NCBI GenBank assembly: GCA_020342155.1
Contig: CP070842.1
Span: forward strand, 1,492,405-1,556,404
Source of the DNA: Dehalococcoidales bacterium
GTDB lineage: Bacteria; Chloroflexota; Dehalococcoidia; Dehalococcoidales; Fen-1064
Direction of reading: 5' to 3'
DNA length: 64,000 bases
In this document: positions 24,776 through 59,719 of the stretch, in pieces
Numbering within the stretch: position 1 is the stretch's first letter
How the letters are laid out: the number at the start of each line of letters is the position of its first letter
The notes under the pieces: model-generated
The model's input: the letters and a program-made list of their open reading frames with translations, nothing else
The model's database searches: none
Told to the model about the DNA's origin: nothing
Program-made: the position numbers and the translations under genes

Positions 24776-26371
24776 TTACTTGTAAGTCTCGTGTTTCAGC
24801 AGCCAGTACTCTAGGCTGTCGGTCAAGGCCAGCCAGCTTGCCTCGATGATGTCGGTGGAGCTACCGACGGTACGCCAGTCGTCGACACCATCACTGGACT
24901 CAATCAGCACACGCACCTGGGACTCGGTGCCGGTGCTTTCCTCAAGGATGCGGACCTTATAGTCCACCAGCTTAACGGCTGCCAGGCTGGGATAGAACAC
25001 CAGCAACGCTTTACGGAGGGCCTCGTCAAGGGCGTTGACCGGCCCGTTGCCCTCGGCGACAGTATGCATTATTTCGTTACCAACCCTGACTTTAACCATC
25101 GCCTCGTCCAGCATCTCTTCACGTCCCTTATTTGTAGGCGAGCGTCGCCGGTTCTCGACAACCACCATGAAGTCGACCAGTTCAAATGGTGGCTGATAGT
25201 CTGGCCTGGCACGATGTACTAGCAGGTCAAAGGAGGCCTCTGCATTTTCGTACTGGAAGCCGCGGCTCTCCATCAGCTTTATCTGGTCGAACAGCTCTTT
25301 GACCTCTTTTTTCTCGGTGGGTATATCAAGACCGCGTTCCTGGGCCTTTTGGATGATGCTTCGTCTGCCTGCCTGTTCCGAGACGACAATCCGCCGCTTG
25401 TTGCCGACCTTAGTCGGGTCAATGTGGTGGTAGGCATCCGCCCACTTGGCGACCCCGTCAGCGTGATAGCCGGCCTTGTGGCTGAAAGCGCTGGTGCCGA
25501 CGAAAGGAAGGAAGGCGTCTGGAATCAGGTTAGCCGCCTCACTGACATAGTGGGAGATCTCCGACAATTTGCCAAGCTGTTCATCACTGATGCAGTCAAT
25601 CCCCATCTTCAGTTTCAGGACGGGGATAATGGAGCAGAGATTGGCGTTACCGCAGCGTTCACCATAGCCGTTGATGGTGCCCTGGATATGGGTGGCCCCG
25701 TTTTCTACGGCTGCCAGAGTGCTGGCCACGGCCAGACCGCTGTCGTTGTGGGCGTGGATACCAAGTGTAACCCGCGTAACTTTTTTAGCTGCTTTAACAG
25801 CGGTGATTATTTCGCCGGGGAGCGCTCCACCGTTGGTATCACACAGTACCAAGCAATTTGCCCCGGCTTCGGCAGCCACTTGAAGCGTCTTCAGGCTGTA
25901 TTCGGGGTTGCTCTTATACCCGTCGAAGTAGTGCTCAGCATCGAAGAAGACTTTCATACCGCTGGCTCTCAGGTAGCGGACGGAGTCGTCAATCATATTC
26001 AGGTTTTCCTCGAGGGTTGTCCCTAGCACACGTTTAACGTGCAAATCAGAGCTTTTCGCAACGATGGTGGCTATCCCGAACCCGGCGTCGACAAGCATAG
26101 CCAGGTTGTCATCTTCCTCGGCCTTGATATCGGCACGCCGGGTACTGCCGAATACGGTGATTTGCGTATTGCTAAATCTCAGGTTGCGCATCTTTTCGAA
26201 GAATTCGGCGTCCTTCGGGTTAGAACCGGGCCAACCGCCTTCGATGTAGTGAATGCCAAGCTCGTCAAGCTTTTCGGCAATATTTAGTTTATCAACCACC
26301 GAAAAGGAGATGCCCTCTTTCTGGGCACCATCTCTAAGTGTAGTATCGTAGAGTTCTACTTTTGGCACCAC
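24776..26371 (-). CDS. cimA: (R)-citramalate synthase
   Basis: A 531-residue protein with DTTLRDGAQKEG at the N-terminus, the HAHND metal motif, GTINGYGERCGNA, and a C-terminal regulatory domain with the substrate loop AGYHADGVAKW. It condenses acetyl-CoA and pyruvate to citramalate, the first step of threonine-independent isoleucine synthesis; the presence of leuBCD next to it supports this. No threonine deaminase is in the cluster. A GTG start at 26371 follows AGGAGG, 11 nt after leuB ends. It is the last gene of the branched-chain cluster. Confidence 0.94.
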   Translation of the reverse strand: MVPKVELYDTTLRDGAQKEGISFSVVDKLNIAEKLDELGIHYIEGGWPGSNPKDAEFFEKMRNLRFSNTQITVFGSTRRADIKAEEDDNLAMLVDAGFGIATIVAKSSDLHVKRVLGTTLEENLNMIDDSVRYLRASGMKVFFDAEHYFDGYKSNPEYSLKTLQVAAEAGANCLVLCDTNGGALPGEIITAVKAAKKVTRVTLGIHAHNDSGLAVASTLAAVENGATHIQGTINGYGERCGNANLCSIIPVLKLKMGIDCISDEQLGKLSEISHYVSEAANLIPDAFLPFVGTSAFSHKAGYHADGVAKWADAYHHIDPTKVGNKRRIVVSEQAGRRSIIQKAQERGLDIPTEKKEVKELFDQIKLMESRGFQYENAEASFDLLVHRARPDYQPPFELVDFMVVVENRRRSPTNKGREEMLDEAMVKVRVGNEIMHTVAEGNGPVNALDEALRKALLVFYPSLAAVKLVDYKVRILEESTGTESQVRVLIESSDGVDDWRTVGSSTDIIEASWLALTDSLEYWLLKHETYK

Positions 26372-26382
26372 TTCATTACCTC

Positions 26383-27474
26383 CTATACCCTGGCGGCTAT
26401 CAGGTCACCCATCTGTTGCGTTCCAACCTTTGCCTGTCCCTCGGCCACGATATCATAGGTACGGTATCCTTCCTCAAGCACCCGGTCGACCGCTTTCTCG
26501 ACGGCCTGGGCCTCTTCCGGCAGGCCGAGGGAGTAACGCAGCATCATAGCGGCACTGAGGATAAGGGCGCAGGGATTGGCCATGTCCTGCCCTGCGCGAC
26601 GAGGGGCACTGCCATGAATAGGCTCGTACATACCGGGTATCTTTACTCCGTCCTGTGGTACCCCGGCCAGACTGGCCGACGGCAACATCCCCATCGAGCC
26701 GGCCAGCATCGAGGCTTCATCAGTAAGAATATCACCGAAGGTGTTTTCGGTGACAAGTACGTCAAGATAAGTGGGGTTCTGGATGAGACGCATAGAGCAG
26801 GAGTCGACCAGCATATGCTCTAGTTCGACATCCGGGTACTCCTCTGATACTTCGATAGCTACCTGCCGCCAGAGGCGTGACGATTCGAGGACGTTGGCCT
26901 TGTCCACCGAAATAAGATGCTTGCGACGGGTTCTGGCCAGCTCAAAACCGACCTTTACAATACGCTCTATCTCCTGCTCAGAGTAGACCATGGAGTCGAC
27001 CGCCCGCCGGCCCCGCGATGTCCGCCACCGCTTCTTGGGTCTGCCGAAGTAGAGACCGCCGGTAAGCTCGCGGATGAAGATAAAGTCCACACCTCTGATT
27101 ACGTCCGGCTTGAGGTTGGTAGAATCGATTAGCATCGGGAAGACCTTGACCGGCCGCAGGTTGGCAAACAGCCCCATTCCTTTACGCAGCGCCAGCAGGC
27201 CGTCTTCGGGGCGAACGGAGGCCTGGGGGTCGTCCCACTTGGGGCCACCGACGGCACCGAGTAGAACAGCGTCAGATTTCTTGCACAGCTTGAGGCAGTC
27301 TCTGGTCAGCGCCTCACCGGTCTCGTCAATGGCGACACCACCAATCAGGTCGTATTTCAGATTAAAGCTGTGGCCGCATTTCTCACCGACCGACTTCAGT
27401 ACCTTGATACCTTCATTAGTGACCTCCGGGCCGATGCCGTCGCCCGGCAGGACTGCCAGATTGAATGATGTCAT
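26383..27474 (-). CDS. leuB: 3-isopropylmalate dehydrogenase
   Basis: A 363-residue protein of the isocitrate/isopropylmalate dehydrogenase family: GDGIGPEV at the N-terminus, [23 protein letters not shown], the metal-binding [16 protein letters not shown] and NAD loop [13 protein letters not shown]. It oxidatively decarboxylates 3-isopropylmalate in leucine synthesis and, in the citramalate route, 3-methylmalate. Its ATG overlaps the leuD stop (TAATGA), indicating translational coupling. Confidence 0.96.
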
Positions 27475-27974
27475 TAAGTCCTCCTGCTTGCCAGTCTCTT
27501 TTTCGTATGCTCAATCAGCCCGTCAGCGGCGATTAGTTCTCCCATGAAAGCCGGGTAGGGCTTGGCGGTGAACTCCGTACCCCGGGTCAGGTTCCTTATT
27601 TTGCCATTAGCCAGGTCCACTTCCACCTCGTCACCGGCCTCCGTGCCGGCTACCGCCTCTTCGCTTTCCAGCAGTGGCAGGCCGATATTGATGGAGTTGC
27701 GGAAGAAGATACGGGCAAAACTGCTGGCAATAACACAGGATATACCGGATGCCTTGATTGCCAGTGGGGCGTGTTCGCGGGATGAGCCACAGCCGAAGTT
27801 GGTGGTCGCCACTATTATATCACTTGGTTGCACCCTGTTGAGAAACTCTGTGTCAATGTCCTCCATGCAGTGTTCTGCCAGCTCCGCTGGCTCAGATACG
27901 TTCAGGTACCGCGCCGGGATAATGGCATCGGTATCAACATTGGCCCCGTATTTAAAGACTTTTCCTTTTAGCAT
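27474..27974 (-). CDS. leuD: 3-isopropylmalate dehydratase small subunit
   Basis: A 166-residue swivelling-domain subunit: [17 protein letters not shown] at the N-terminus, [11 protein letters not shown] near residue 60, and [16 protein letters not shown]. The short length fits the archaeal/anaerobe-type small subunit that pairs with a LeuC of about 420 residues. It isomerises 2- to 3-isopropylmalate and citramalate to 3-methylmalate. A clear AAGGAG site precedes the ATG. It is separated from leuC by four unrelated genes. Confidence 0.95.
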
Positions 27975-28067
27975 GTGGTGTCTCCTTGTTTTCAGTACTG
28001 ATTATATCATGAACCTTCACTCAGATTATTCTGCGTTCATTCATCCAATAACAGGCCAATCACTACA

Positions 28068-28754
28068 CTATTCCTGGGGGAAGGGCGTCTCCTGGTCGAG
28101 GCTTGTTTCTTTCCAGAATTGCAGCCCGAGTACCTTCAATAAACGGGCCTTTGCATATATCTGGGGATTGAATCTGGCATGTGCTCTTTGAGAAGCAATA
28201 TTATCTATGGCCACCGCATTCCGTGATGCGGTACGTCCCATTTCTTTGAGGTATTGTATTCTCTTGAAATACCCGTATACCATCAACCCCTGTCGCCCGT
28301 ATTTCGGTAGTGTACGAGTACTCCCGGTGCAAGCCTCTCCATTTGAAAAGTCGACATGATAAGGAGTGTCATCAATCGTTTTTTTGGCCTCTGCAGTCAT
28401 AGCCACCCATCCTATGTGGGCTAGCTCATTGTCCACCAGAATACAGAATGCGACTGCCCCCTTTTTAAGGCTCTTCTCAAACTCTGGAGAGAGCTGGCGG
28501 ATATCAATACCTCTGGCGGCCAGTTCAGCAGCCTGGCTGTTTGAAGATACTATTTCCATAGAAAAGTTATCAATTCTGGGTAAAAAGTCTGTTTCTGCCC
28601 TCTCCTCAAGTGAATGTTTATAAAGGTATAACTTATCATAACGAATAAAACGCCGACTGAAAAAGGAGACAACCCTTCTTAGAGTGGTGACTAATCCCTC
28701 CTCCCGTAGAACAGTTCGGGCCCTTGTGTATAAAGCTCTTATTGTATTTATCAT
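28068..28754 (-). CDS. GNAT-like acetyltransferase
   Basis: From ATG 28754 about 228 residues. It begins with a basic amphipathic helix (MINTIRALYTRARTVLREEG), then a GNAT-like domain: AFCILVDNELAHIGWVAM, TLPKYGRQGLMVYGYF, and NAVAIDNIASQRAHARFN. An upstream extension to 28955 is open but looks non-coding in character. The substrate is unknown. It is a passenger inside the branched-chain cluster, between the FmdE gene and leuD. Confidence 0.7.
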   Translation of the reverse strand: MINTIRALYTRARTVLREEGLVTTLRRVVSFFSRRFIRYDKLYLYKHSLEERAETDFLPRIDNFSMEIVSSNSQAAELAARGIDIRQLSPEFEKSLKKGAVAFCILVDNELAHIGWVAMTAEAKKTIDDTPYHVDFSNGEACTGSTRTLPKYGRQGLMVYGYFKRIQYLKEMGRTASRNAVAIDNIASQRAHARFNPQIYAKARLLKVLGLQFWKETSLDQETPFPQE

Positions 28755-28967
28755 CGTTATCACCCGCAGGAATCCGGTTACTACAGGGTCATTCCAGCAC
28801 CACAATGGCCTGGACACTGATATCTCCGGATAGCTTTTCCTTTGACTGGTAGTGGAATGCTCTTTATCAGGATTTTCATTCTGTTCATCTGTGTCCCTGT
28901 TAACCGGTGTACCAACCCGCTTATAAAGTCTTAGCAGGTGGTTGGGTGTATCCAACTCTCAGTGTAC

Positions 28968-29489
28968 TCACTTTTTCTCCGCACAGGGGATACATACCGT
29001 GTTGCCGTTGACCTCTCTCGTGCGGGTTGCCATCACGCTCTCTCCGCAGGACTCGCAGGCTACCGACCTCATGATTCTAGCTGGTTCAGGCTCATCAATA
29101 CGTACTTCTTGCAGTGATACGACATTCTCTTCGGGTGTAGATAGGAGCCAGTCGATAAACTGGTCCCGGTTCTTACCGGCGTTTTCGGGGATATTTTGGG
29201 GACCGAAAAGGACACGTACGCCTTTTTTAGATTGGCGGTTGTACAGTGTATAGGCCTGTTTCCCGTAGTCTTTGAAAATAAGGTTGCCCTTTCCGAACGT
29301 GCAGCCGGAAAGATATTGTAAGGCATCCACCCCGCAGGCGTCATTCTCGACAATGGCCACCATTTCCTCATCGGCTGCTCTGGAGCCCGACAGGTAGTCC
29401 AGCCCGGCCCTGGCCATGCGGTAGCCGATGGCCAGCCCGGGGCAGCTATGACCATGAAAGGCAATTATATCTTTATATCCTTTATCCAT
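28968..29489 (-). CDS. FmdE-family metal/redox protein with C-terminal zinc ribbon
   Basis: A 173-residue protein with the FmdE signature FHGHSCPGLAIGYRMA (His12, His14, Cys16), the second motif VENDACGVDALQYLSGCTFGKGN in two parts, and a C-terminal zinc ribbon (Cys145, 148, 166, 169). The family was named for a protein co-transcribed with molybdenum formylmethanofuran dehydrogenase; its biochemical role is still unclear. No Fmd/Fwd subunits are nearby. It follows the Cys-rich membrane gene by 15 nt, suggesting they work together. Confidence 0.88.
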   Translation of the reverse strand: MDKGYKDIIAFHGHSCPGLAIGYRMARAGLDYLSGSRAADEEMVAIVENDACGVDALQYLSGCTFGKGNLIFKDYGKQAYTLYNRQSKKGVRVLFGPQNIPENAGKNRDQFIDWLLSTPEENVVSLQEVRIDEPEPARIMRSVACESCGESVMATRTREVNGNTVCIPCAEKK

Positions 29490-29504
29490 TTCAGTCCTCC
29501 CTAT

Positions 29505-30035
29505 TTACTCCCCCTTGGCGGTGGTCCCCGGGCACATCAGTCTCATCTTGCAGCCGACGCAGCTTTTCTGGCGGCTGATGAAGCCGCTGTAGACGGACAT
29601 CAGCAGCAGGAGCATCAGTACCACTATTTTAGCGACAGTAACTGCCTGGATCAGGGCGATGATGACCAGTACCAGCGGTATCAGGCTCAACAGTCCGTAG
29701 GTGATGGGGGCCAGCTTCACGCCGATACCTGTCGCAAAACATTCGAGGCTACCCTGCTTAAAGAACACAGCTGAGAGCTTGCCCCAGCCCGTACCGCACC
29801 ACTTGCCGTAATAATAGCAGTCGATACAGACCAGTCTCCGCAATACCACCCAGACCATTACCACCGCCACCGGCAGATAAATCCAGGCGGCCAGCGGGAC
29901 CAGGAACCAGCAGGAAATCGTCCCGAGAGCGACCCAGGTAATCATGGCAAGGTTGGCCAGTACCACCGTTCTCTTCGGGTAGTTCTCTATCCCCTGCTCA
30001 TAGATGCATATTTCTACGATTTTAGTTTCGGACAA
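29505..30035 (-). CDS. cysteine-containing four-helix membrane protein
   Basis: A 176-residue protein with about four transmembrane segments (residues 25-45, 45-66, 106-126, 130-150). Cytosolic or interface cysteines form CIDCYYYGKWCGTGWG near 70-85 and CVGCKMRLMCPG near the C-terminus, which could bind a metal or cluster. I do not know the function. It is next to FmdE and the MGMT-like gene on the same strand with very small gaps. Confidence 0.72.
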   Translation of the reverse strand: MSETKIVEICIYEQGIENYPKRTVVLANLAMITWVALGTISCWFLVPLAAWIYLPVAVVMVWVVLRRLVCIDCYYYGKWCGTGWGKLSAVFFKQGSLECFATGIGVKLAPITYGLLSLIPLVLVIIALIQAVTVAKIVVLMLLLLMSVYSGFISRQKSCVGCKMRLMCPGTTAKGE

Positions 30036-30041
30036 TTGCTG

Positions 30042-30515
30042 CTATACCTCCACCAGGGCTTTCTCATAGTCCGCAACGCGCGGTGTCTTCCGGCGCCGGT
30101 CGATGGTGTGCCCCTCCTCCTCTAGTCGGGTGGCCTGAGCTTCGACCCCGCCGGGGAATTTTTCATTTAGCTCCCCTTTGGACTTTAAGGTGCGCCAGTA
30201 GGGGTTGATGTCAATAATACCTTCGGCAGCCATCTCTTCAGCCGCACGGGCCGAAATACCGGCAAAGATGCCGGTGGTTATTGGTCAGCCGAAGCTCGCA
30301 TTATGCCTCATGGCCAGTACTTCCCGTATCTGATTGATGGTAATCAGCCTGCCTCTGGGGACCATCCGCATAATCCCGTCCACCTCTCTCGGCGCCGGGA
30401 TAACACAGGTGCCCTCGCCCCATAGTTTGCTCATCTTCTCGTTGACTTCCACGACCTTGGGCATGTCTCTATCGTCGTTGAGCTTTTCCTGCCAGGTCTT
30501 TTTTGCTTTTGCCAT
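30042..30515 (-). CDS. MGMT-family (alkyltransferase-like) protein with in-frame UGA, selenoprotein candidate
   Basis: The frame from ATG 30515 (GTG 30524 also possible) runs 76 codons to a TGA at 30285-30287 and then stays open for 80 codons to the stop at 30042. Both parts are needed for one complete protein: WGEGTCVIPAPREVD, GRLITINQIREVL, then ASFG-UGA-PITTGIFAGISARAAEE, NPYWRTLKSKGELNEKFPGG. In homologs as I recall them the UGA position is Cys (G-C-P-x-T-T-G-I-F). A hairpin GCCG-GUAUUU-CGGC starts 22 nt after the UGA, with G first in the loop, as in bacterial SECIS elements. The alkyl-acceptor PCHR of true MGMT is here PYWR, so methyl transfer by that residue is unlikely. A nonsense mutation is the alternative. 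Confidence 0.6.
30250..30275 (-). promoter_or_regulatory. candidate SECIS-like hairpin
   Basis: Downstream of the in-frame UGA two overlapping hairpins are possible: ACCGGC-AUCUUU-GCCGGU (30258-30275) and GCCG-GUAUUU-CGGC (30250-30263). The second places a G at the first loop position about 26 nt after the UGA, within the range for bacterial SECIS. The stem is short and the two folds compete, so support is moderate. Confidence 0.35.
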
Positions 30516-30566
30516 TTCAATCACCCCTTTATTACCTATTACTGCGAGATGATTCAGTTTATTATT

Positions 30567-31823
30567 CTAGGATATTGTCTCCCTGGGGCTGGTGATGTAG
30601 CCGGTTATGGCGCTGGCGGCGGCCACCGCCGGATTTGCCAGGTAGACCTCCGACTTGGGGTGGCCCATCCGGCCGACGAAGTTGCGGTTGGTCGTCGAGA
30701 CACAGCGCTCGCCCTCGGCGAGTATGCCCATGTAGCCGCCGAGGCACGGGCCGCAGGTCGGGGTGCTGACCACCGCCCCGGCCCGGATGAAGGTCTCGAC
30801 CAGACCTTCCTTCATAGCGTCAAGGTAGACCTGCTGTGTGCCCGGGATGATAATGCAACGCACATCGAAGTGTACCTTTTTGCCTTCTATAACCCGGGCG
30901 GCAAGCTGGAGGTCACTGAGGCGTCCGTTGGTGCAGCTGCCGATTACCGCCTGGTCTATCTTGATATTACCAAGCTCACTGACGGGACGGGCATTGGATG
31001 GGAGGTGGGGTAGTGAGACCTGCGGTTCCAGTAAGGACACATCGTACTCGATAACCTGCGCATACTCGGCATCGGCATCCGGCTCGTAGACGGTGTAAGG
31101 TCGTCTGGCGCGGGGCTTTACATAATCAAGTGTCTTTTCGTCCACATGGAATATCCCGGCCTTGCCCCCGGCCTCGATAGCCATATTGGACATGGTGAAC
31201 CGGCCGTCCATGGAGAGTGCATCAATTGCCTCACCGGTGAACTCCATAGCAGCGTAGAGGGCACCGTCGACGCCAATCTGCCCGATTGTATACAGGATGA
31301 GGTCTTTACCCCCGACCCACTCTGGCAGGGTGCCGTGATAGACAAATCTGATGGTGGGTGGCACCTTCATCCAGATGTCACCGGTGGCCATGGCGGCGGC
31401 GATATCGGTAGAGCCCATACCGGTGGCAAAAGCACCGAGAGCACCATAGGTACAGGTGTGTGAGTCAGCCCCGATAATAACATCGCCGGGTACAACTAGC
31501 CCCTGCTCCGGCAACAGCACATGCTCGATGCCCATCTGCCCGACGTCATAGTGCGGTATCCCCTGCCCGCGGCAGAAGTCGCGCATCATCTTGGCTTGCT
31601 CCGCCGAGGTAATGTCCTTGTTGGGCACGAAGTGGTCGGCCACCATGACAATCTTTTGGGAGTCAAAGACCCTGTCTATCCCGATGCGGCGGAACTCCTT
31701 GATAGTGATGGGGGCAGTGATGTCGTTGGCCAGGATGACATCCGCCCGGACATTGATAAACTCACCCGGACTCACCTTTTCCTTGTCGGTATGAGCGGCC
31801 AGTATCTTTTCAGCTAATGTCAA
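30567..31823 (-). CDS. leuC: 3-isopropylmalate dehydratase large subunit
   Basis: A 418-residue aconitase-family subunit. 4Fe-4S ligands are in IGSCTNGR and TCGPCLGG; substrate motif [21 protein letters not shown] in two parts. The short form without the swivel domain pairs with LeuD. A TTG start follows AAAGGAAA. It sits downstream of leuA by about 125 nt. The gap at 31824-31948 contains only a weak CGGGTT/AACCCG repeat. Confidence 0.95.
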
Positions 31824-31948
31824 CGTAGTTTCCTTTCCTTAAGATTGTCCATAAGACTCACCGGGTTGGGTCACCGTTGAAGCAGGAGAGGCAGAATATG
31901 ATAGTACAACGGCAACCCGACAGATATCTTAATCCCTGATAGAGAGGA

Positions 31949-33469
31949 CTACGCGGTCGCTTTCTTATCAGATAGCAACCGATTAAGGGCATTGATGTAG
32001 GCTTTGGCGCTGGCGACGATAATATCGGTATCGGCACCCCGGCCAGTGTAGGTTATGCCCCCACTCTCCACCCTAATCAGCACCTCACCGATAGCATCAA
32101 TGCCCTCGGTGATTGACTTTATCGAAAACTCGGTGAGTGTGCACGGTACGGCCACTATCTTGTCAATTGCCTCGCAGACTGCGTCCACCGGACCGGTACC
32201 AATGGCGGCCTCGGCCTTGACCTCGCCATCGGGAGCTACCAGCTTGACCGAAGCGGTGGGTATCCCCCTGTCGCCGCAGGTCACCTGGAGTCGGTCGAGG
32301 TGATAGACCTCAGAGACGGTACGCTGTTCCTCGGCAACTATCGACTCGATATCCTTATCGGTGACGTTCCTCTTCTTATCAGCCAACTCTTTAAAGGAGG
32401 CAAAGGCACGGTTGAAGTCTTCCTCATTGAGACTATAGCCCAATTCTGCCAGGTGCTCCCTGAAGGCATGCCGCCCGCTGGTCTTACCCAGCACCAGGCT
32501 GCTTGAGGGGACGCCTACCGATTGCGGGTCCATTATTTCAAAGGTTGTCCGCATCTTGATAACGCCGTCAACATGGAGACCCGACGAGTGACGGAAGGCA
32601 TTGGCACCGACAACAGCCTTGTTGGGTTGGACCGGGGTACCGGTCAACTCACTAACCAGCCGACTGGTCCTGTATATCTGGGTCGTGTTGATACCGGTGG
32701 AGAGGTCGTAGAAGTCCTGGCGGGTCTTGATGGCCATAACAATCTCCTCGAGTGAGGCATTGCCCGCTCTCTCGCCGATACCGTTAATGGTGCCCTCCAC
32801 CTGTCTGGCTCCCCGCTTGATGGCTTCCAGGCTGTTGGCTACGGCCAGACCCAGGTCGTCGTGGCAGTGCACACTGACGATTGCCTTGTCGATATTTGGT
32901 ACGTTTTTAAAAATGTTATCGATGAGGCCGCCAAATTCATCGGGCATGGCGTAGCCCACGGTATCAGGGATGTTTACCGTGGTAGCCCCGGCGTTAATCA
33001 CTGCCTCCAAAATCTGGTAGATATATGCCGGGTCGCTACGGCTGGCGTCCATCGCGGAGAACTCCACGTTATCAACATATTTCCTTGCCCTGGCTACTGT
33101 ATCGCAGGACATCTTCAGGATTTCCTCGCGATTCTTCCTCAGTTGATGAAACAGGTGAATATCTGAAGTCGAGAGAACGATGTGAATGCACGGATGTGCC
33201 GCCCCCTTGACCGCCTCCCAGCTCTGGTCCACCGCTTCGAGATTAGCGTGGGTCAGCACGCAGATTACAGGGATGCGCACTTCTTCCGCGATGAGACGTA
33301 CCGCCTCGAAGTCACCAGGTGATGTTACCGGAAAGCCGGCCTCGATAACATCCACACCGAGCTTTTCCAGCTGCCTGGCTATCTCCAGTTTCTCCGCGAT
33401 GTTCAGCGACCCACCGGCCGCTTGCTCGCCATCCCGGAGAGTTGAATCAAAGACAATTACCTTTTCCAT
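31949..33469 (-). CDS. leuA: 2-isopropylmalate synthase
   Basis: A 506-residue protein: catalytic domain with DSTLRDGEQAAGG, HCHDDLGLAVANS, GTINGIGERAGNA, then the substrate loop SSGLHVDGV and a C-terminal LeuA dimer/allosteric domain (ITYTGRGADTDIIVASAKAYINAL in two parts), so leucine feedback is expected. It condenses acetyl-CoA with 2-oxoisovalerate. The start is fixed by AGGAGG. The 230-nt gap upstream towards ilvC contains a copy of the dispersed repeat. Confidence 0.95.
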   Translation of the reverse strand: MEKVIVFDSTLRDGEQAAGGSLNIAEKLEIARQLEKLGVDVIEAGFPVTSPGDFEAVRLIAEEVRIPVICVLTHANLEAVDQSWEAVKGAAHPCIHIVLSTSDIHLFHQLRKNREEILKMSCDTVARARKYVDNVEFSAMDASRSDPAYIYQILEAVINAGATTVNIPDTVGYAMPDEFGGLIDNIFKNVPNIDKAIVSVHCHDDLGLAVANSLEAIKRGARQVEGTINGIGERAGNASLEEIVMAIKTRQDFYDLSTGINTTQIYRTSRLVSELTGTPVQPNKAVVGANAFRHSSGLHVDGVIKMRTTFEIMDPQSVGVPSSSLVLGKTSGRHAFREHLAELGYSLNEEDFNRAFASFKELADKKRNVTDKDIESIVAEEQRTVSEVYHLDRLQVTCGDRGIPTASVKLVAPDGEVKAEAAIGTGPVDAVCEAIDKIVAVPCTLTEFSIKSITEGIDAIGEVLIRVESGGITYTGRGADTDIIVASAKAYINALNRLLSDKKATA

Positions 33470-33558
33470 GACATCCTCCTGAGAGAAGTAACAACATGAA
33501 GGGTATTCCTTATAATAGAGTAGTCGTTCTTCTCTATGACTGTATTAAAATAACCAGC

Positions 33559-33600
33559 CATTATCCCCTCCCCGTTGAAGGAGAGGGGCCAGTAAGGATG
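33559..33600. repeat. dispersed palindromic repeat, partial copy
   Basis: CCCCTCCCCGTTGAAGGAGAGGGG followed by a degenerate tail, in the leuA-ilvC gap. It matches the palindromic half of the repeats at 44436 and 45062. Confidence 0.5.
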
Positions 33601-33700
33601 AGTTTATTCCTGCCGGAGAATCCGGCTGTGGAATATATCCTCGGATATTTATTTCCTCTTTTATACTCGATACGAACCAATTTCTACCCGTTCCCGTTAA

Positions 33701-34696
33701 CTAATCTTGCTTGAGCCAGGGCATCATCTGGCGTAATGCCTCACCGACCTGCTCAATGGGATGTTCAGCCTCGATACGTCTCAGGGCGTTGAAGACAGGG
33801 CGCCCAGCCTGGTTCTCCAGTATCCACTCTTTGGCAAAGGTACCGTCCTGAATCTCAGCCAGAATCTCGGCCATCTCCTGCTTGACCATATCGTCGATAA
33901 TACGTGGCCCGCTGACGTAATCGCCATACTCGGCAGTATTGCTCACAGAATACCGCATATAGCTCAGGCCACCCTGGTAGATGAGGTCAATGATAAGCTT
34001 AAGTTCGTGCAGGATTTCGAAGTAGGCTATCTCCGGTTGATAACCAGCCTCAATCAATGTCTCGAAGCCGGCCTTTATCAGTCCGGTGATACCTCCGCAG
34101 AGCACGGTCTGCTCACCAAAGAGGTCGGTCTCGGTTTCCTCGGCGAAGGTGGTCTCAATAACACCAGCCCGGCTGCAGCCGATGCCCTTGGCATAGGCCA
34201 GGGCGATGTCTCTGGCGTCACCGGTGGCGTCCTGATGCACGGCCACTATCGCTGGAGGCCCCACCTCTTCTGTGTAGAGCCGTCTCAGCATGTGGCCGGG
34301 GCACTTGGGCGCTATCATGATGACATTGACATCCGCGGGTGGCACAACCTGTCCGTAGTGGATACTGAATCCATGCGAGAACAGCAGGGTATTGCCAGAG
34401 ACCAGCCCTGGTAAAATAGACTCAGAGTATATTTTACCGTGCAATTCATCCTCGGCCAGCGTCGTGATGATATCGGCTTCCTTGGCTAATTCGGTGGCGT
34501 TCGTTACCTTAAAGCCGGCTTCCTTGGCGTTCTTCCAACCCGGGCTACCCTCAAGTTCAGCGACTATCACCTGGCAACCGCTGTCCCTCAGGTTCTGGGC
34601 CTGGGCGTGCCCCTGACTGCCATAGCCAATGATGCCAATCACTTTTCCGTCGAGCAGCTTCAAGTCGCAATCGTTATCGTAATAAATTTTTGCCAT
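33701..34696 (-). CDS. ilvC: ketol-acid reductoisomerase, class I
   Basis: A 331-residue protein: Rossmann domain with GYGSQG (24-29), the [11 protein letters not shown] loop, and a single knotted C-terminal domain with [11 protein letters not shown] and CGGITGLI metal and catalytic residues. It converts 2-acetolactate and 2-aceto-2-hydroxybutyrate to the dihydroxy acids. The cofactor loop reads AELEGSPGW where NADPH enzymes usually have a GLREGSKSW-like loop; the 2'-phosphate-binding Arg and Ser are replaced (Leu48, Gly53) and a Glu47 appears, suggesting NADH use. Confidence 0.95.
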
Positions 34697-34719
34697 TTCC
34701 TTGTTCCTCGCTTCACCTG

Positions 34720-35664
34720 TTACGAATCGGCCTGACCCGTCTTTGTCAGTAGTATCGGGTTGGAGACCGCCTGTAGGACGCTCTCAGTGACACTGCCGAA
34801 TACGAGGCGGCTCAGTCCAGAGCGCCCGTGTGTTGCCATGACAATGATGCTGAAAGGATTCTTGGTGGCATAGTCTATAATTTCATCGGCAGCTTTACCC
34901 ACGAGCACCGCTGCCTGTGTCTTGATGCTATTATCCTCAAACTGCTTGGCTATTTTAACCAGGTACTCGGTGGCAGACTGTTTACTAAGGGTCATTTCTT
35001 GTTCCATAAACTCTCCCCAGTTGAGGGGTACGCCGGAAAGCTCCGGAGAATAATAGGTTGGTGCTATCGGGGGGTCGCAGGCCCTGATAAAGTTCACGGT
35101 CACCGGTTCCATAGCACGTTGCTTGGCTAGCGCCTCGGCATGCGGTAGTGCTGATTCTGCCATTTCCGAACCGTCGAGTGGGACCAGTATTGCCCTTGTC
35201 GGCCACTTGTCATACGGGACAGCGTCTTCAACACCGGCACGGATAAACAACACCGGTACCCTCGAAGCCCGCAGTACCTTGTCAGCAACACTACCCATAC
35301 GCCAACGCCGAATTCCGGAACGCCCATGGCTGGCCATCAGAATCAGGTCAACCTCGTTTTCTTCGGCAAAGCGGAGAATCTCTTCGGCATAATGGCCATC
35401 GGCCAGTTCCCCCCGGACCTCTACCTGTCTTTCTTCTGCTGGAATGCCCAGTTTTTCTTGCACGTCCTCGACCTGGCTTATTATTGTTTCGGCGGCACGC
35501 TCGATGTAAGCGCGGTGGACAGGTACGAATTCACGTCCCATACCGCCGTACACCTGTAGCAGAACGATGTCCAGGTTGAGCCTGGCGGCAAGCTCCTTGG
35601 CAAAGGGGAATACTACTTCAGCAAGTTCTGAACCATCAAGTAGAACCAGCATTTTTCGGTACAT
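34720..35664 (-). CDS. tandem universal stress protein
   Basis: A 314-residue protein with two UspA domains (about 1-143 and 156-310). Each ends with the ATP-binding pattern: [23 protein letters not shown] and [22 protein letters not shown], so both probably bind ATP. It is a passenger between ilvN and ilvC on the same strand. It has its own leader of about 120 nt containing the palindrome GGCGAATTCGCC just upstream of the ribosome site GGAGGTG. Confidence 0.93.
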
Positions 35665-35683
35665 TTTGCACCTCCGATGGCGA

Positions 35684-35695
35684 ATTCGCCTTTAC
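35684..35695. promoter_or_regulatory. perfect 12-bp palindrome in the stress-protein leader
   Basis: GGCGAATTCGCC lies about 20-31 nt upstream of the universal stress protein ATG and ends a few bases before its ribosome site. It could be an operator or an RNA hairpin; the evidence is only its symmetry. Confidence 0.3.
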
Positions 35696-35782
35696 CTTAC
35701 AGTATGTACAATTTGAAATCAATGCGTGTGTTAGTAAATATTGTCAGCACTCCAGGTTTGCCATGGTTTTTTAGGAAGTGCT

Positions 35783-36319
35783 TTATTTCAGGCCTCGCCT
35801 TGCCGGTGTTGCCTTTTCTCCTCCGAGTAGGCTAGAGCTTCCCCTGGTCATGGCGATACGGCCCGTTCGGGACATCTCCTTGATACCGAACCCGTGGAGT
35901 AGGCTCAACAGGGATTCAACCTTCTCTTCATCTCCTGTAACCTCGACAGTTACCGAATCGGCTGCCACATCGACAATATCTGCCCGGAATATGTCCACAA
36001 TCTGTATGATTTCACTTCGGGTGGTTGAATTGGCTTTCACCTTGATGAGTGCCAGCTCCCGGGCAATCATATCGTCACTGGTGATATCGGATACCTTCAT
36101 GGTGACCACCAGTTTGTCCAGTTGCTTCCTGAGCTGTTCAATCATGGCGTTTGTACCGTCGACGACGATGGTCATGCGTGAAAGGCGCGGTGTCTCGGTA
36201 TGCCCGACGGCAATACTCTCAATATTGAATCCGCGTCGGCGACACAGGCTCGCCATCCGGTTGAGTACCCCGGGCCTGTCCTCGACAAGGGCAACTAGCG
36301 TGTGCTTGTTTCCAGTCAT
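35783..36319 (-). CDS. ilvN: acetolactate synthase small (regulatory) subunit
   Basis: A 178-residue protein with an N-terminal ACT domain (HTLVALVEDRPGVLNRMASLCRRRGFNIESI in two parts) and the C-terminal ALS_ss_C domain. It binds valine or other end products and controls the large subunit. Its ATG overlaps the ilvB stop codon (ATGA), so the two subunits are translationally coupled. Confidence 0.95.
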   Translation of the reverse strand: MTGNKHTLVALVEDRPGVLNRMASLCRRRGFNIESIAVGHTETPRLSRMTIVVDGTNAMIEQLRKQLDKLVVTMKVSDITSDDMIARELALIKVKANSTTRSEIIQIVDIFRADIVDVAADSVTVEVTGDEEKVESLLSLLHGFGIKEMSRTGRIAMTRGSSSLLGGEKATPARRGLK

Positions 36320-38013
36320 GGTGTTGCTACCCCCTTCTCTATCTCTTCGCCTTCCAGTAACTCTATGAGGCTACCACCGAGCTTAACCATCGGATAAACA
36401 TTCTCTTCCGGCTCGATGCGAAAATCGATTAAGAATGGCCCCGGTTCTTTCATAGCCTGCTCAATAGCTGGGACCACATCCTCTTTACGTTTTGCCATTG
36501 CGCCCGGAATGCCATAGGCTTCGGCCACCTTGACGAAGTCGGGGCCGCTCAGCGGCGTTGCCACATAGCGCTTCCCGAAGAACATCTCCTGCCACTGCCT
36601 CACCATTCCCAGAAAACCATTGTTAAAGATGGCTATCTTGATGGGCAACCGTTCCTGCTGAATGGTAGCCAGTTCCTGAATCGTCATCTGGAAGCTGCCG
36701 TCACCGTCCAGACACCAGACAGTGGCTTTGGGACGGCCCATTTGTGCGCCTATAGAGGCGGGTAACCCGTAGCCCATCGTGCCGAGACCACCGGATGTGA
36801 TAAAGGAGTTGGGGTGGTCATAGTGATAGTGCTGCGCCGCCCACATCTGGTGTTGTCCTACACCGGTCACAATGGTGGCTTTTCCCTTGGTCACCTCGTA
36901 AATCAGTTTAACGACGTATTGCGGCAGTACTGACTCGCTGTCGCGGATGTCGAGCCCCGGATGCTCCCGGCGCCAGTCATCCAACCGTGCTATCCAGTCA
37001 ACGTGCTGGTTTGATTCCACTACTTTGTTCAGCTGGGTGAGTACGTTCTTAACGTCACCGACAATCGGTACGTCTACCTTAACATTCTTACCAATCTCTG
37101 CCGGGTCGATGTCGATATGGACGACGCGGGCATGTGGATTGAAGGCGCTAATCTTGGCAGTAGCCCGGTCGTCGAACCGCATACCGATAGCGATTATCGT
37201 ATCAGCAGCATCAGTGGCCAGGTTGGCGTAGGCCATACCATGCATTCCCAGCATGTCGTAGTTGAGGATGTGGCTTTCCGGGATGGCGCTGATACCGAGC
37301 AGGGTTGTTATTATCGGTATCTGCGCTTTTTCTGCCAGTTCTTTCAGTTCAGCGTACGCCCCTGAGACGATGATACCCCTGCCAGCCAGGATGACTGGCT
37401 CCTTAGCCTCATTTATCAGTTTGGCTGCCCTCTTTATCTGTGCCGGGTGCCCCTTGAGTGTTGGCTTGTAGCTGGGCAGGTCGAATTCCTTTGGATAGTG
37501 GTACTCCACCTGCTCCATGAAAACATCACCGGGCACGTCAATCAGCACCGGTCCCGGTCTTCCTGTACGTGCCAGGTAGAATGCCTCTCTGACAATGCGT
37601 GGCAGGGAAGCAGTCTCCAGCACCAGGTAGTTATGCTTGGTAATCGGCAGGGTAATGCCGGTAATGTCGACCTCCTGGAAGGCATCCTTACCAATATCAG
37701 GTCGGTTCACCTGGCCGGTTATGGCTACCATTGGTACAGAATCGAGAAAAGCATCGGCGATACCGGTCACCAGATTGGTAGCCCCCGGTCCGGAGGTAGC
37801 GATGCAAACACCTACCTTGCCAGTAGCGCGGGCATAGCCTTCCGCGGCATGCGCAGCTCCCTGCTCATGCCGTGTCAAGACGTGGTGAATCTGGGGATAT
37901 TGAGGCATGGTATCGAAGAGGGGGATAACTTTCCCGCCCTGGATGCCGAAGGTAACCTCGACCCCTTCCTTCACTAATCCATCCAGCATCATCTGGGCGC
38001 CAGTCATCTTCAT
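36316..38013 (-). CDS. ilvB: acetolactate synthase large subunit
   Basis: A 565-residue thiamine-diphosphate enzyme: catalytic Glu in TRHEQGAAHAAEGYAR, FAD-binding central domain, and the ThDP/Mg motif GDGSFQMTIQELAT ... NNGFLGMVRQWQ. It forms 2-acetolactate from pyruvate and 2-aceto-2-hydroxybutyrate from pyruvate plus 2-oxobutyrate. AGGAGATATAAC precedes the ATG. It lies 13 nt after ilvD. Confidence 0.96.
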   Translation of the reverse strand: MKMTGAQMMLDGLVKEGVEVTFGIQGGKVIPLFDTMPQYPQIHHVLTRHEQGAAHAAEGYARATGKVGVCIATSGPGATNLVTGIADAFLDSVPMVAITGQVNRPDIGKDAFQEVDITGITLPITKHNYLVLETASLPRIVREAFYLARTGRPGPVLIDVPGDVFMEQVEYHYPKEFDLPSYKPTLKGHPAQIKRAAKLINEAKEPVILAGRGIIVSGAYAELKELAEKAQIPIITTLLGISAIPESHILNYDMLGMHGMAYANLATDAADTIIAIGMRFDDRATAKISAFNPHARVVHIDIDPAEIGKNVKVDVPIVGDVKNVLTQLNKVVESNQHVDWIARLDDWRREHPGLDIRDSESVLPQYVVKLIYEVTKGKATIVTGVGQHQMWAAQHYHYDHPNSFITSGGLGTMGYGLPASIGAQMGRPKATVWCLDGDGSFQMTIQELATIQQERLPIKIAIFNNGFLGMVRQWQEMFFGKRYVATPLSGPDFVKVAEAYGIPGAMAKRKEDVVPAIEQAMKEPGPFLIDFRIEPEENVYPMVKLGGSLIELLEGEEIEKGVATP

Positions 38014-38026
38014 GTTATATCTCCTT

Positions 38027-39688
38027 CTAGCTAAACACAGCTCCGGTACTGGCCGAAGTCACCTTTTCTATGTAACGGCTCAAATAGCCCGTTTTTACTC
38101 TCGGTTCGAATTTGCCAAGACTGGTTAGGCGCTTGGAAATTTCCTCATCCCCAAGCTCCACCTCCAGTTGGTAGTTCGGGATATCTATCTTGATGATATC
38201 CCCATCCTGCAGGGCGGCGATCGGGCCACGGCTGGCGGCTTCCGGGGAGACATGACCGATGGCAGCGCCGCGGGAGCCTCCAGAGAAGCGCCCGTCAGTG
38301 ATGAGGGCTACGTCCTTGTCCATACCCATGCCGCTCAGCAGTGCGGTGGGTGTCAGCATCTCCCTCATACCGGGTCCGCCTTTGGGACCTTCATTACGGA
38401 TAATGACTATTTCCCCTGCCTTTATCTCATTATTCATGATGGCGGTGGTTGCTTCTTCCTCGGAGTCGAACACCCTGGCCGGTCCTTGGTGGACCATCAT
38501 CTCCGGGGCGACCGCTGCTTTCTTAACAATAGCGCCGTCGGGGGCCAGGTTACCGAAGAGGATGGCAATGCCCCCAGTGGCTGAGTAGGCGGTATCTCTG
38601 GATCGGATGACGTCTCTATCGAGCGCCTGGCTGTTTTTAATGTTTTCGCCGGTCGTTTTTCCGGTCACTGTCGGCAGGTTCAGGTTAATGAGGTCGGAGA
38701 CCTCTTTCATAACCGCGGGGATACCTCCTGCCCGGTCCAGGTCCTCGATACGGTGTTCGCCGGCGGGACTGAGCAGGCAGATGTGCGGGGTGTTCTGACA
38801 GAGCTCGTTCACCCTGGTCAGGGGAAAGGCAAACCCTCCCTCATGGGCGATGGCCATCAGGTGCAGTACCGAGTTGGTACTGCCACCCAGGGCCATATCA
38901 ACCGTCAGAGCATTATCTATCGCGGCCTCAGTGACAATATCCCTTGGGCGGGTATCGCTGGCCAGAAGTTGCATAACCTGTTCGCCGGCCTTCTTTGCCA
39001 GTGCTATTCGTCTTGAGTCAACGGCTGGGATGGTGCCGTTACCGGGTAGGCCCATTCCCAGTACTTCGGTGAGGCAGTTCATCGTGTTGGCGGTAAACAT
39101 CCCAGCGCAGCTTCCACAACCGGGGCAGGCAATTTTTTCCAGCTGGGCTAATTCCTCTTCGCTCATATCCCCTGCGGTGACCTTGCCCACTGCCTCGAAT
39201 AGAGATATAACATCAAATTTACGGCCGCCATCACCGGCGATATAGCCTGCCAACATTGGCCCGCCACTGATGAAGATTGACGGTACGTTAAGCCGCATGG
39301 CCGTCATGAGCATGCCGGGTACCACCTTATCACAGTTGGGAATGAAGACGAGGGCGTCGAAGGCATGGGCTTCGGCGACCGTCTCTGCAGAGTCGGCAAT
39401 CAGTTCCCGGCTGGGCAGGCTGTACTTCATCCCGGCGTGGCCCATGGCAATGCCATCGCAGACAGCGATGGTGTTGACCTCGAAGGGAACGCCCCCACCC
39501 CTTGACACTCCCTGCTTTACCGCATCGGCGATGCTCCTCAGGTGAATGTGGCCAGGCACAACTTCACTGAAGCTGTTGATGATGCCCACGAAAGGCTTGT
39601 CAAGGTCGCTTCGGTTGACACCGACCGCGTGCAATAACGCCCGATGTGCTGCCCTTTCGATACCCTTCTTGACTGCATCGCTCTTCAT
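38027..39688 (-). CDS. ilvD: dihydroxy-acid dehydratase
   Basis: A 553-residue Fe-S dehydratase with [40 protein letters not shown] and GRFSGGSRG motifs. It dehydrates the dihydroxy acids in valine and isoleucine synthesis. It is the first structural gene of the minus-strand branched-chain cluster and lies 33 nt after an intrinsic terminator preceded by a Val/Leu/Ile-rich leader peptide, so its transcription is probably set by attenuation. Confidence 0.96.
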
Positions 39689-39720: not shown

Positions 39721-39748
39721 AAAAAAAAGGCCGTCCCGTGGGACGGCC
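39721..39748 (-). terminator. attenuator terminator before ilvD
   Basis: On the minus strand GGCCGTCCC-ac-GGGACGGCC (39729-39748) is followed by eight T (39721-39728). It is a strong intrinsic terminator lying between the leader peptide and ilvD, not after a structural gene, so it must be conditional. Confidence 0.85.
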
Positions 39749-39769
39749 CCCTGTGTAGGACGAACCCAC

Positions 39770-39823
39770 TCACCGGAAATAATTAGTAACGATAAGTACT
39801 AGTGTAACATACTGCGTGCTCAT
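39770..39823 (-). CDS. branched-chain leader peptide of the ilvD attenuator
   Basis: A 17-codon ORF MSTQYVTLVLIVTNYFR with six Val/Leu/Ile codons, five of them in a row (L-V-L-I-V, codons 8-12). It lies between a consensus promoter and the ilvD terminator, the classical arrangement for ribosome-mediated attenuation of a branched-chain operon. Scarce Val-, Leu- or Ile-tRNA would stall the ribosome on these codons and prevent the terminator from folding. The stop TGA lies inside the block CCGGTGAGTGGGTTCGT shared with the leuS leader. There is no Shine-Dalgarno; the ATG is where transcription should begin. Confidence 0.8.
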   Translation of the reverse strand: MSTQYVTLVLIVTNYFR

Positions 39824-39829
39824 GATATG

Positions 39830-39858
39830 AAAATAACACATTCTCTGTTTATTGTCAA
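39830..39858 (-). promoter_or_regulatory. ilvD attenuator promoter
   Basis: Minus strand TTGACA (39853-39858), 17-nt spacer, TATTTT (39830-39835). Only 6 nt separate the -10 box from the leader-peptide ATG, so the transcript probably starts at or beside that ATG. Confidence 0.75.
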
Positions 39859-56744: not shown

Positions 56745-59549
56745 CTATTCCACCACGAAGTTTAATATTTTCCCAGGTACATATATGATGTCTTTAATTT
56801 TCTTTCCTTCAAGATATTCAGCTATACGAGTTGATCGTTCCCTAGCGAATTGCGGTAATTCTGCTTTGGTAATTGTTGAAGCGAGTACTGCCGGTATCGT
56901 GATCTTGTCGCGCATCTTGCCGCTGATCTGAATAGGTAGCGTGACCTCTTCTTCTTTAGCCAGCTCCTCATCCCACTGCGGCCAGTCCTGGCTATGAATG
57001 CTGTAGTAATGTCCGGTCTGCTCCCAGAGTTCTTCGGCGACATGAGGAGTTGATGGTGCCAGGAGTAGCATCAATTTTTCAATGGCCTCGTTCCAGTCGG
57101 CCTGGCTGACACTGCTAGACTCCCTGATTTTAGTGAGGTAGTTGGTGAACTCCATCAAGGCAGCAATCATTGTGTTAAAGCGCAGCCTCTCGATATCACC
57201 GGTTACCTTGCGGATGGTCTGATGGGTAGTTCTTTGCAGCTCGGTACGAACTCCGTCGCTCTCTACTCTGGGAGTATATTCCTCTATTACCAGGTTCCAC
57301 ACCCGGTTCAACCAACGCCTGACCCCGCTGATGCCACTGTCGTCCCACTCACCTCCTTGCTCCCAGGGACCGAGGAACATGAAGTAGACACGTACAGTAT
57401 CTACACCCAGGTCAATAACATACTCATCGGGAGTAATCACATTACCTCGCGACTTACTCATTTTTCGCTGCTCGGCGATGATATGTCCCTGGTTATACAG
57501 GCGGTTACATGGTTCGTCAAAATGGACTATGCCCATATCCCTCAGTGCCTTGATGAAGAATCGGACGTACAGCAGGTGCATCACGGCATGCTCAGCGCCG
57601 CCGGTATACAGGTCTACGGGCATCCAGTACTTCATCTTTTCCGGGTCAAAGGCGGCTTTCTCATAGTGCGGACTACAGTACCGTAGGAAATACCAGGAAG
57701 AGCACATAAAGGTGTCCATGGTGTCCGTCTCTCGTTTGGCCGGACCGGAGCATTGCGGGCACGTGGTATTGACGAACTGCTCGTTGTAGGCCAGCGGTGA
57801 CTCTCCGGTGGGCCTGAACTCGGCGTCCTCTGGCAGCAGCACGGGCAGGTCTTCCTCAGGGACAGGCACAATGCCGCATTTGTCGCAATAGACCATCGGT
57901 ATTGGTGCGCCCCAGTAGCGCTGTCGCGAAATCAGCCAGTCGCGCAGGCGATAGCTGACGGTAGCATGGCCGAACCCTTGCTGTTCCATCCATTCGGTTA
58001 CTGTGTTGATAGTCTGGTCACCGGGTGTTCCCGTGAGCGGGCCGGAGTGAATCATGGTCCCGTACTCAGTGTGGAACAACATATCGTGATAAAACTCCAG
58101 ACCCCACAGCATCTCCATTACGGTACGTCTGTTCCGAACGTTTGGCTCTAGCTCCTTGCATTTTGCTAGTATCAACCGGTCGGCATCAATGGAATCAAAA
58201 GGTAACACGGTCACACCCTCTTCGCTGGCGAAGATAAAGAGCCAGCGTGAGCCTACTATCTCAACCCAGCTTCCAGGTAAAAGACTCGACTTGACCATCT
58301 CTATATAACGATCAATCTGGTCATCACCATGAAGCGTAACGTAGAGTCCGCCATTGCTTGTTTCAATAAAGGTGATGTTGGCAGCCTCCAAAGACTGCTT
58401 GAGGCCTGGACGCATTGTCCCCGCCATGGCGAAGCTCTTGGCGATGCCATCAGTGCGGTCAATCACGTGAATGACGGGCAGGCCATATTTCAGGGCGAAG
58501 GCGAAGTCACGCTCATCATGGGCGGGTACAGCCATCACGGCGCCGGTGCCGTATCTCAGGAGGACGTAGTCGGCAATCCAGATGGGGACCTTCTCACCAT
58601 TGAGCCGGTTGATGACGTATGAGCCGAGAAATACCCCGTCCTTCTCTTTTTCAGTGGAGAGGCGCTCAATCTCGGTCTGCCGTCGTGACCGCTCGACATA
58701 GGCCTCAACTTCGGCTTTTCTCTCCGGTACAGTCAATTTGGGTACCAGCGGGTGTTCTGGGGCGAGCACCATAAAGGTCACGCCAGAGGTGGTGTCTGGG
58801 CGGGTAGTAAAGACACGGATTTCCTTCTCGTCGACAACGGGATGATCAAGGGCAAACGAAATCTCGGTACCGGTGCTCCGGCCAATCCAGTTCCGCTGCA
58901 TTATCTTTATTCGCTCCGGCCAGTCAATGCCAACGTGCTCTTTGAGTTCATCAGCGTATTTTGTGATGCGGAAGAACCACTGCTCTAAGTCACGGTGGAT
59001 AACCGCCGTGTCACAACGTTCGCACAGACCGTCAATTACCTGTTCGTTGGCAAGCACTGTCTGGCAACTGGGGCACCAGTTGACCGGGGCCTTGGCGCGG
59101 TAGGCCAGGTCGTGCTCGTATAGTTTGACGAAGAACCACTGTGTCCACTTGTAATAGTCAGGCTGGCAGGTGATGACCTCTCGGTCCCAGTCGTAGACTG
59201 CCCCCATGCTTTTGAGCTGCCGGCGCATATTTTCGATGTTCTGCATTGTCCAGGTGTAAGGGTGAATACCCTGCCTGATGGCAGCATTTTCGGCATTGAG
59301 GCCAAAGGCGTCAAAGCCCATGGGGTGGAGGACATTGTAGCCCTGCATCCGCTTGAACCTGGCCTGGACATCGGAGGGGGCCATAACGTACCAGTGCCCG
59401 ATGTGGAGGTCTCCCGAAGTGTAGGGAAACATGGTAAGGGCATAGTATTTTGGTCTGGGACTGTCCTCGCTGACCCGGTACAACCCGGTCTCGGCCCATT
59501 TCTCCTGCCATTTTTTCTCGATTTCGTTTGGTATGTACTTCGCTGCCAT
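56745..59549 (-). CDS. leuS: leucyl-tRNA synthetase with a large insertion
   Basis: A 934-residue class I synthetase: HIGH motif at 49-52, zinc ligands CPSC (159-162) and CERC, editing domain with TTRPDTTSGVTFMVLAPEHP and GTGAVMAVPAHDERD, and KMSKSRGN in the C-terminal half. Between VIDRTDG (about 368) and FHTEYGTMIHSG (about 492) are about 120 residues usually absent at this place in the editing region. AGGAAGGG precedes the ATG. Expression is probably controlled by the leader peptide and terminator 36-134 nt upstream. Confidence 0.95.
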   Translation of the reverse strand: MAAKYIPNEIEKKWQEKWAETGLYRVSEDSPRPKYYALTMFPYTSGDLHIGHWYVMAPSDVQARFKRMQGYNVLHPMGFDAFGLNAENAAIRQGIHPYTWTMQNIENMRRQLKSMGAVYDWDREVITCQPDYYKWTQWFFVKLYEHDLAYRAKAPVNWCPSCQTVLANEQVIDGLCERCDTAVIHRDLEQWFFRITKYADELKEHVGIDWPERIKIMQRNWIGRSTGTEISFALDHPVVDEKEIRVFTTRPDTTSGVTFMVLAPEHPLVPKLTVPERKAEVEAYVERSRRQTEIERLSTEKEKDGVFLGSYVINRLNGEKVPIWIADYVLLRYGTGAVMAVPAHDERDFAFALKYGLPVIHVIDRTDGIAKSFAMAGTMRPGLKQSLEAANITFIETSNGGLYVTLHGDDQIDRYIEMVKSSLLPGSWVEIVGSRWLFIFASEEGVTVLPFDSIDADRLILAKCKELEPNVRNRRTVMEMLWGLEFYHDMLFHTEYGTMIHSGPLTGTPGDQTINTVTEWMEQQGFGHATVSYRLRDWLISRQRYWGAPIPMVYCDKCGIVPVPEEDLPVLLPEDAEFRPTGESPLAYNEQFVNTTCPQCSGPAKRETDTMDTFMCSSWYFLRYCSPHYEKAAFDPEKMKYWMPVDLYTGGAEHAVMHLLYVRFFIKALRDMGIVHFDEPCNRLYNQGHIIAEQRKMSKSRGNVITPDEYVIDLGVDTVRVYFMFLGPWEQGGEWDDSGISGVRRWLNRVWNLVIEEYTPRVESDGVRTELQRTTHQTIRKVTGDIERLRFNTMIAALMEFTNYLTKIRESSSVSQADWNEAIEKLMLLLAPSTPHVAEELWEQTGHYYSIHSQDWPQWDEELAKEEEVTLPIQISGKMRDKITIPAVLASTITKAELPQFARERSTRIAEYLEGKKIKDIIYVPGKILNFVVE

Positions 59550-59584
59550 TTTCCCTTCCTGATTTTGTCCTGGTTTTTAATAAT

Positions 59585-59608
59585 AAAAAAACCGTCCCAG
59601 TGGGACGG
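59585..59608 (-). terminator. attenuator terminator before leuS
   Basis: Minus strand CCGTCCC-act-GGGACGG (59592-59608) followed by seven T (59585-59591), between the Leu-rich leader peptide and leuS. The stem is almost the same as that of the ilvD attenuator. Confidence 0.85.
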
Positions 59609-59635
59609 CCAAGCGGTAACGAACCTGCCCACCGG

Positions 59636-59683
59636 TTATGGACTATGAATGCTAAGTGCGAGTATGAGATATCGTCTTTTCAT
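59636..59683 (-). CDS. leucine-rich leader peptide of the leuS attenuator
   Basis: A 15-codon ORF MKRRYLILALSIHSP with three Leu codons in five (L-I-L-A-L, codons 6-10; CTC, CTC, CTT) plus two Ile. Low charged tRNA-Leu would stall the ribosome here and allow readthrough into the synthetase gene. The TAA stop directly abuts the block CCGGTGGGCAGGTTCGT, related to the one in the ilvD leader. There is no Shine-Dalgarno; the ATG is 7 nt after the -10 box. Confidence 0.78.
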   Translation of the reverse strand: MKRRYLILALSIHSP

Positions 59684-59690
59684 GATAGGT

Positions 59691-59719
59691 AAGATAGCAC
59701 AGATTATGTCTATTGTCAA
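59691..59719 (-). promoter_or_regulatory. leuS attenuator promoter
   Basis: Minus strand TTGACA (59714-59719), 17-nt spacer, TATCTT (59691-59696). Transcription should begin at the leader-peptide ATG or within one base of it. Confidence 0.75.

Follow-up and report, generated by a model that had tools for sequence, protein, structure and literature searches.

A probable ribosome-mediated attenuator before ilvD in Dehalococcoidales, and its relatives before leuS and valS

In the enterobacterial ilvGMEDA, ilvBN and leuABCD operons, stalling of a ribosome at the branched-chain codons of a leader peptide causes an antiterminator to be picked over a terminator. The leader described here, which precedes ilvD in a Dehalococcoidales bacterium, is like these systems in that a stall at branched-chain codons would select the antiterminator. 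The enterobacterial leaders are longer, start at a Shine-Dalgarno sequence and include a 1:2 pause hairpin.

The leader of ilvBNC in Corynebacterium glutamicum (the ilvB-II motif) encodes a 15-codon Leu/Val/Ile peptide (PMC11857589, PMC10272879). Compared by features, the C. glutamicum and Dehalococcoidales leaders are alike in their Leu/Val/Ile peptide and in an antiterminator (predicted in the latter) and terminator that share a segment; the C. glutamicum transcript starts one base from the AUG, and a start near the AUG is probable here too. However, the C. glutamicum leader belongs to Actinobacteria, stands before ilvB and not before ilvD, forms a hairpin that serves as anti-antiterminator and occurs as one copy per genome. 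The ilvB1 uORF of Mycobacterium tuberculosis (PMC13236596) is similar in having LVVI codons, an intrinsic terminator and a terminating ribosome that masks the antiterminator. It too is actinobacterial; it does not belong to a set of leaders adapted to tRNA synthetase genes, and is not known to be leaderless. In Streptomyces, which is of a different phylum, attenuation by a leader peptide has been predicted for two tRNA synthetase genes, leuS and trpS (PMC1262725), and no paralogous set before ilv, leuS and valS genes was reported there.

The ilvD leader element is found at 39721-39858 on the minus strand of the window (the whole 64,000-nucleotide stretch that was analyzed), where a consensus promoter, an ORF and a strong terminator follow one another; the leader is roughly 100 nucleotides long. 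The promoter (39830..39858, minus strand) is of the sigma-70 type, TTGACA-17 nt-TATTTT with an extended -10 element (TG), and matches the consensus at 10 of 12 positions; both TTGACA and the TG-extended -10 element are kept in homologous leaders. The ORF (39770..39823, minus strand), whose translation is MSTQYVTLVLIVTNYFR, starts with the ATG at 39823 and comprises 17 codons before a TGA stop at 39772-39770. Its control codons are CTA GTA CTT ATC GTT (L-V-L-I-V). The putative 5' strand of the antiterminator, GUGGG (39765..39769, minus strand), lies directly 3' of the stop. The intrinsic terminator (39721..39749, minus strand) consists of GGGCCGUCC-CACG-GGACGGCCU and a run of eight T residues ending at 39721, and it outranks every other candidate terminator in the 9 kb scanned. 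Folding of the leader gives z = -1.85. An earlier sequence-only reading had already described this promoter, the 17-codon ORF with L-V-L-I-V, the GC-rich terminator with its eight T and an ilv-leu-cimA cluster downstream, and had guessed the phylum Chloroflexota, all of which stand, the order being Dehalococcoidales. Its statement that all parts lie within 140 nucleotides upstream of ilvD needs correction, because the promoter starts 170 nucleotides before the ilvD start (39688).

The first gene of the controlled cluster is ilvD itself (38027..39688, minus strand; NCBIfam TIGR00110). The rest of the cluster, ilvB through cimA (24776..38013, minus strand), was assigned by NCBIfam and Pfam, and comprises ilvB, ilvN, a universal stress protein gene, ilvC, leuA and leuC, followed on the same strand by a gene of no known family, an FmdE-like gene, another gene of no known family, leuD, leuB and cimA. 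From this order, ilvD through cimA is assumed to form one transcription unit. The universal stress protein gene, between ilvN and ilvC, is at 34720-35664. Between leuC and leuD, the three genes occupy 28068-30035; the FmdE-like one carries a zinc finger, and the other two have no family match.

Homologous leaders occur before ilvD in most close relatives, as found in a DNA search of 61 genomes. The same search unexpectedly revealed a paralogous leader within the window (59578..59719, minus strand), upstream of leuS, which encodes leucyl-tRNA synthetase (56745..59549, minus strand; NCBIfam TIGR00396). This second leader has a promoter, a peptide (MKRRYLILALSIHSP, 59683-59636, minus strand), a GGUGGG element (59633-59628, minus strand) and a terminator with a U-run. 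Eighteen leaders were used to build a covariance model, which detects 58 leaders in 38 of 156 Dehalococcoidales genomes, with E-values down to 1e-21 (4.3e-17 for the leuS leader of the window), and the first ORF downstream is ilvD in 37 cases, leuS in 15 and valS in six; samples of these gene assignments were confirmed by NCBIfam. The homology and the covariance-model hits confirm that the leader is more than a chance arrangement. No leader of the family was found outside Dehalococcoidales in a class sample of 393 genomes and a phylum sample of 400. Within the genome studied here, the ilvD and leuS copies are the only ones detected, and its valS has no such leader.

The peptides differ according to the gene that follows. 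Those before ilvD contain L-V-L-I-V or a close variant. Those before leuS contain mostly Leu, with Val replaced by Ala or Thr and Ile by Ser or Thr, as in LILALS, LSLALT and LTLTLS. Before valS, runs of Val are found (MNTTVVVVTK, MTINPVVVVM, MKRTVVVVTI, MSTKLVVVVTY). Branched-chain codons are present in every leader of the family, and the Leu/Val/Ile shares of these residues are 0.37/0.36/0.27 in ilvD leaders, 0.71/0.06/0.22 in leuS leaders and 0.19/0.71/0.10 in valS leaders. The same trend holds within single genomes: the Leu share is higher in the leuS than in the ilvD leader in 12 of 13 genomes with such a pair, and the Val share is higher in the valS leader in all 11 comparisons. Such matching of peptide codons to genes is the strongest evidence that the family acts by ribosome-mediated attenuation, as judged from sequence comparison.

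Codon usage within the ilvD leaders points the same way. Among 19 distinct 17-codon ilvD leaders, codon 8 always specifies Leu, by using six different Leu codons, and the second position is invariant in codons 8, 10, 11 and 12, which are four of the five control codons; the control run is thus under coding constraint. Taken together with the gene-specific peptides, this pattern makes little sense if the control run is not sensed through its translation. Codon 10 is CTT in 18 of the 19 leaders and codon 12 is GTT in 17, although in sampled genes of the window CTT makes up 11% of Leu codons and GTT 18% of Val codons. Perhaps these nearly fixed codons are chosen as slow or sensitive ones.

Downstream of the stop codon, the sequence that pairs best with the 5' arm of the terminator is GUGGG, with CCCAC as its partner, or an equivalent pair. 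In the window, CCCAC (39738..39742, minus strand) lies in the terminator, in its 5' arm and its loop, and is the predicted partner of GUGGG, with a swap test in support. The pairing is kept in substituted versions (GUGGGG:CCCCAC, GUGGAC:GUCCAC, CUGGAG:CUCCAG and UGUGGGAC:GUCCCACA). When the two halves are exchanged among leaders, the swapped halves pair as well as the cognate ones in 151 of 20000 cases for all 55 leaders, and in 19 of 20000 for a dereplicated set of 30 leaders below 80% identity, with kinship among leaders partly retained in both tests. As a positive control, the terminator arms were swapped in the same way, and none of 20000 swaps reaches the cognate pairing. An antiterminator that excludes the terminator by engaging its 5' arm is therefore predicted, with covariation in support.

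The sequence-only reading had instead suggested, as a possible antiterminator, a pairing of UCGUCC, which follows the peptide stop, to GGGACGG in the terminator 3' arm. UCGUCC can form six pairs with GGACGG in the window leader, and many leaders have a CGUCUC-like stretch. However, this stretch is accounted for by an inner helix that it forms with a GGGG upstream of the terminator, swapped halves pair as well as cognate ones in 19758 of 20000 cases (18346 of 20000 in another count), and the helix would cross GUGGG:CCCAC, which does covary. We thus regard it as very unlikely that the same attenuator uses the UCGUCC pairing.

The GUGGG:CCCAC antiterminator also emerges from folding. For RNA that ends at the terminator loop, the antiterminator is the predicted fold in 50 of 55 leaders, and these early folds include an inner helix of the CUCC:GGGG type. 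The inner part of the hairpin predicted for the window leader occupies 39746..39761 on the minus strand, with GUCCU (39761-39757) paired to GGGGC (39750-39746). The early hairpin is modestly more stable than shuffled sequences (mean z about -1). Once the leader RNA is complete, almost every fold favors the terminator over the antiterminator in stability, which implies that the antiterminator has to form before the terminator can, as a kinetic choice. Two other helices were considered. A local GUGGG:CCUAC hairpin, a candidate 1:2 pause or anti-antiterminator hairpin, appears in the minimum free energy fold and shows no covariation (6998 of 20000 swaps). An outer helix flanking the antiterminator, AAGCCG:CGGCUU, is possible in many leaders and likewise lacks covariation (10656 of 20000).

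The distances between these elements agree with this scheme as well. In 53 of 55 leaders, GUGGG begins 15-23 nucleotides past the final branched-chain control codon, even though it may lie anywhere from 2 to 17 nucleotides past the first base of the stop codon. The ribosome footprint is taken to extend about 13 nucleotides on each side of its codon, a figure used for M. tuberculosis (PMC13236596). These values fit a ribosome that, when stalled, would leave GUGGG free and, when terminating, would mask it at least partly in almost all leaders.

We infer that transcription starts at or a few bases from the leader AUG, and that the ribosome loads onto a leaderless ORF. A shortage of charged Leu-, Val- or Ile-tRNA would stall the ribosome within L-V-L-I-V and leave GUGGG free to pair with CCCAC of the terminator 5' arm, aided by the CUCC:GGGG-type inner helix. 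This antiterminator would block the terminator, and transcription would continue into ilvD and the genes that follow. With charged tRNAs available, the ribosome would reach the UGA abutting GUGGG and cover this element, so that the terminator could fold and end transcription. Paralogous switches, with codons changed to Leu or Val, would control leuS and valS in Dehalococcoidales. The parts, their conservation, the codon specificity, the covariation and the spacing are all read from sequence comparison, and what we infer from them is where transcription starts, that the ORF is translated, that ribosomes stall on it and that the switch responds to amino acids. That the window leader is a ribosome-mediated transcription attenuator is highly probable; the sequence-only reading had proposed as much, with a Leu/Val/Ile peptide, and the reading is well supported by the comparative evidence of codon constraint, gene-specific codons in paralogues, a covarying antiterminator and spacing.

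Because sister families lack a branched-chain peptide and yet have a promoter and a terminator upstream of ilvD, it might be supposed that the terminator merely sets a constant level of expression or that a protein controls the leader, the ORF having no sensing role. Such an arrangement would leave the Leu codons before leuS, the Val codons before valS and the covarying antiterminator unexplained, and has little chance of being correct. These sister families are the only relatives found to have a terminator and no peptide, a case that the sequence-only reading had flagged as weighing against attenuation, and their leader is a different one.

Translation of the leader ORF probably begins without a leader in most members of the family, since the ATG lies six to ten nucleotides past the -10 box, where the first transcribed base is expected, in about nine tenths of leaders (six nucleotides in the window ilvD leader). 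A precedent is the ilvBNC start site of C. glutamicum, one base from the AUG (PMC11857589). Some leaderless genes have been reported in Chloroflexi (PMC3160421). This mode of starting is not universal, because in four of six valS leaders the ATG is 19-21 nucleotides past the -10 box; these four may rely on a weak ribosome binding site instead. Throughout the genome studied here, a promoter is spaced 5-10 nucleotides from an ATG at 42 sites and 20-25 nucleotides at 29 sites, versus six or seven sites in reversed-pattern controls, counts that hint that leaderless genes are common. The first 30 of the 42 promoter-at-ATG sites include no obvious other leaderless attenuator.

A T-box, or another riboswitch that binds tRNA or a metabolite, could in principle sense the signal, with the short ORF being incidental. 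T-boxes do precede ilvD in four other Chloroflexota contigs, and one precedes ileS in the same genome (G000:C1:1439200-1440300), where it scores 113.5 bits, above the cut-off. Yet the ilvD leader is only about 100 nucleotides long, it has no match to the T-box model (RF00230) and no Rfam family reaches threshold in it, and the constraint is on codons and tracks the downstream gene. This explanation, named as the alternative in the sequence-only reading, is thus excluded for a T-box at the ilvD leader, and in its wider form is the least probable of those considered. The Rfam matches that do occur in the leader are all weak and at chance level, and the Leu_leader model (RF00512) scores 17.6 bits against the window, below its cut-off of 50. 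With a T-box before ileS and peptide leaders before ilvD and leuS, this genome combines two types of amino acid sensor at its branched-chain genes.

The proposed mechanism is classical leader-peptide attenuation, and the parts that appear new are the phylum, the valS target and the retuned paralogues. No such leader in Chloroflexota or before valS was found in the literature searched, a body that leaves out Lopatovskaya et al. 2010 (cited in PMC4833913). On balance, we favor a history in which a single leaderless attenuator gave rise to copies within Dehalococcoidales that a few codon changes adapted to Leu/Val/Ile before ilvD, Leu before leuS and Val before valS. This would be the first such attenuator described in Chloroflexota and the first for valS, in place of the T-boxes of other Chloroflexota. 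Ribosome-mediated attenuation would thereby extend to a mostly uncultured phylum, and one phylum would contain a swap of sensor type, T-box versus peptide attenuator, for the same gene. The paralogues also constitute a natural experiment, in which homologous switches in one genome have control codons that changed with the downstream gene. Their alignment separates the positions of specificity (V to A/T, I to S/T) from the switch itself (GUGGG:CCCAC at fixed spacing).

The sister families, represented by eight ilvD loci, have a promoter and a CCGUCC-type terminator before the gene. Between these two elements their leaders differ from the one described here, and have no run of branched-chain codons. 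Several share a GGGTTGAAGCTAGGATTTTAG-like sequence. Before ilvD in a member of the Dehalococcoidaceae, the terminator comes almost directly after the promoter, with about 10-20 nucleotides before the hairpin.
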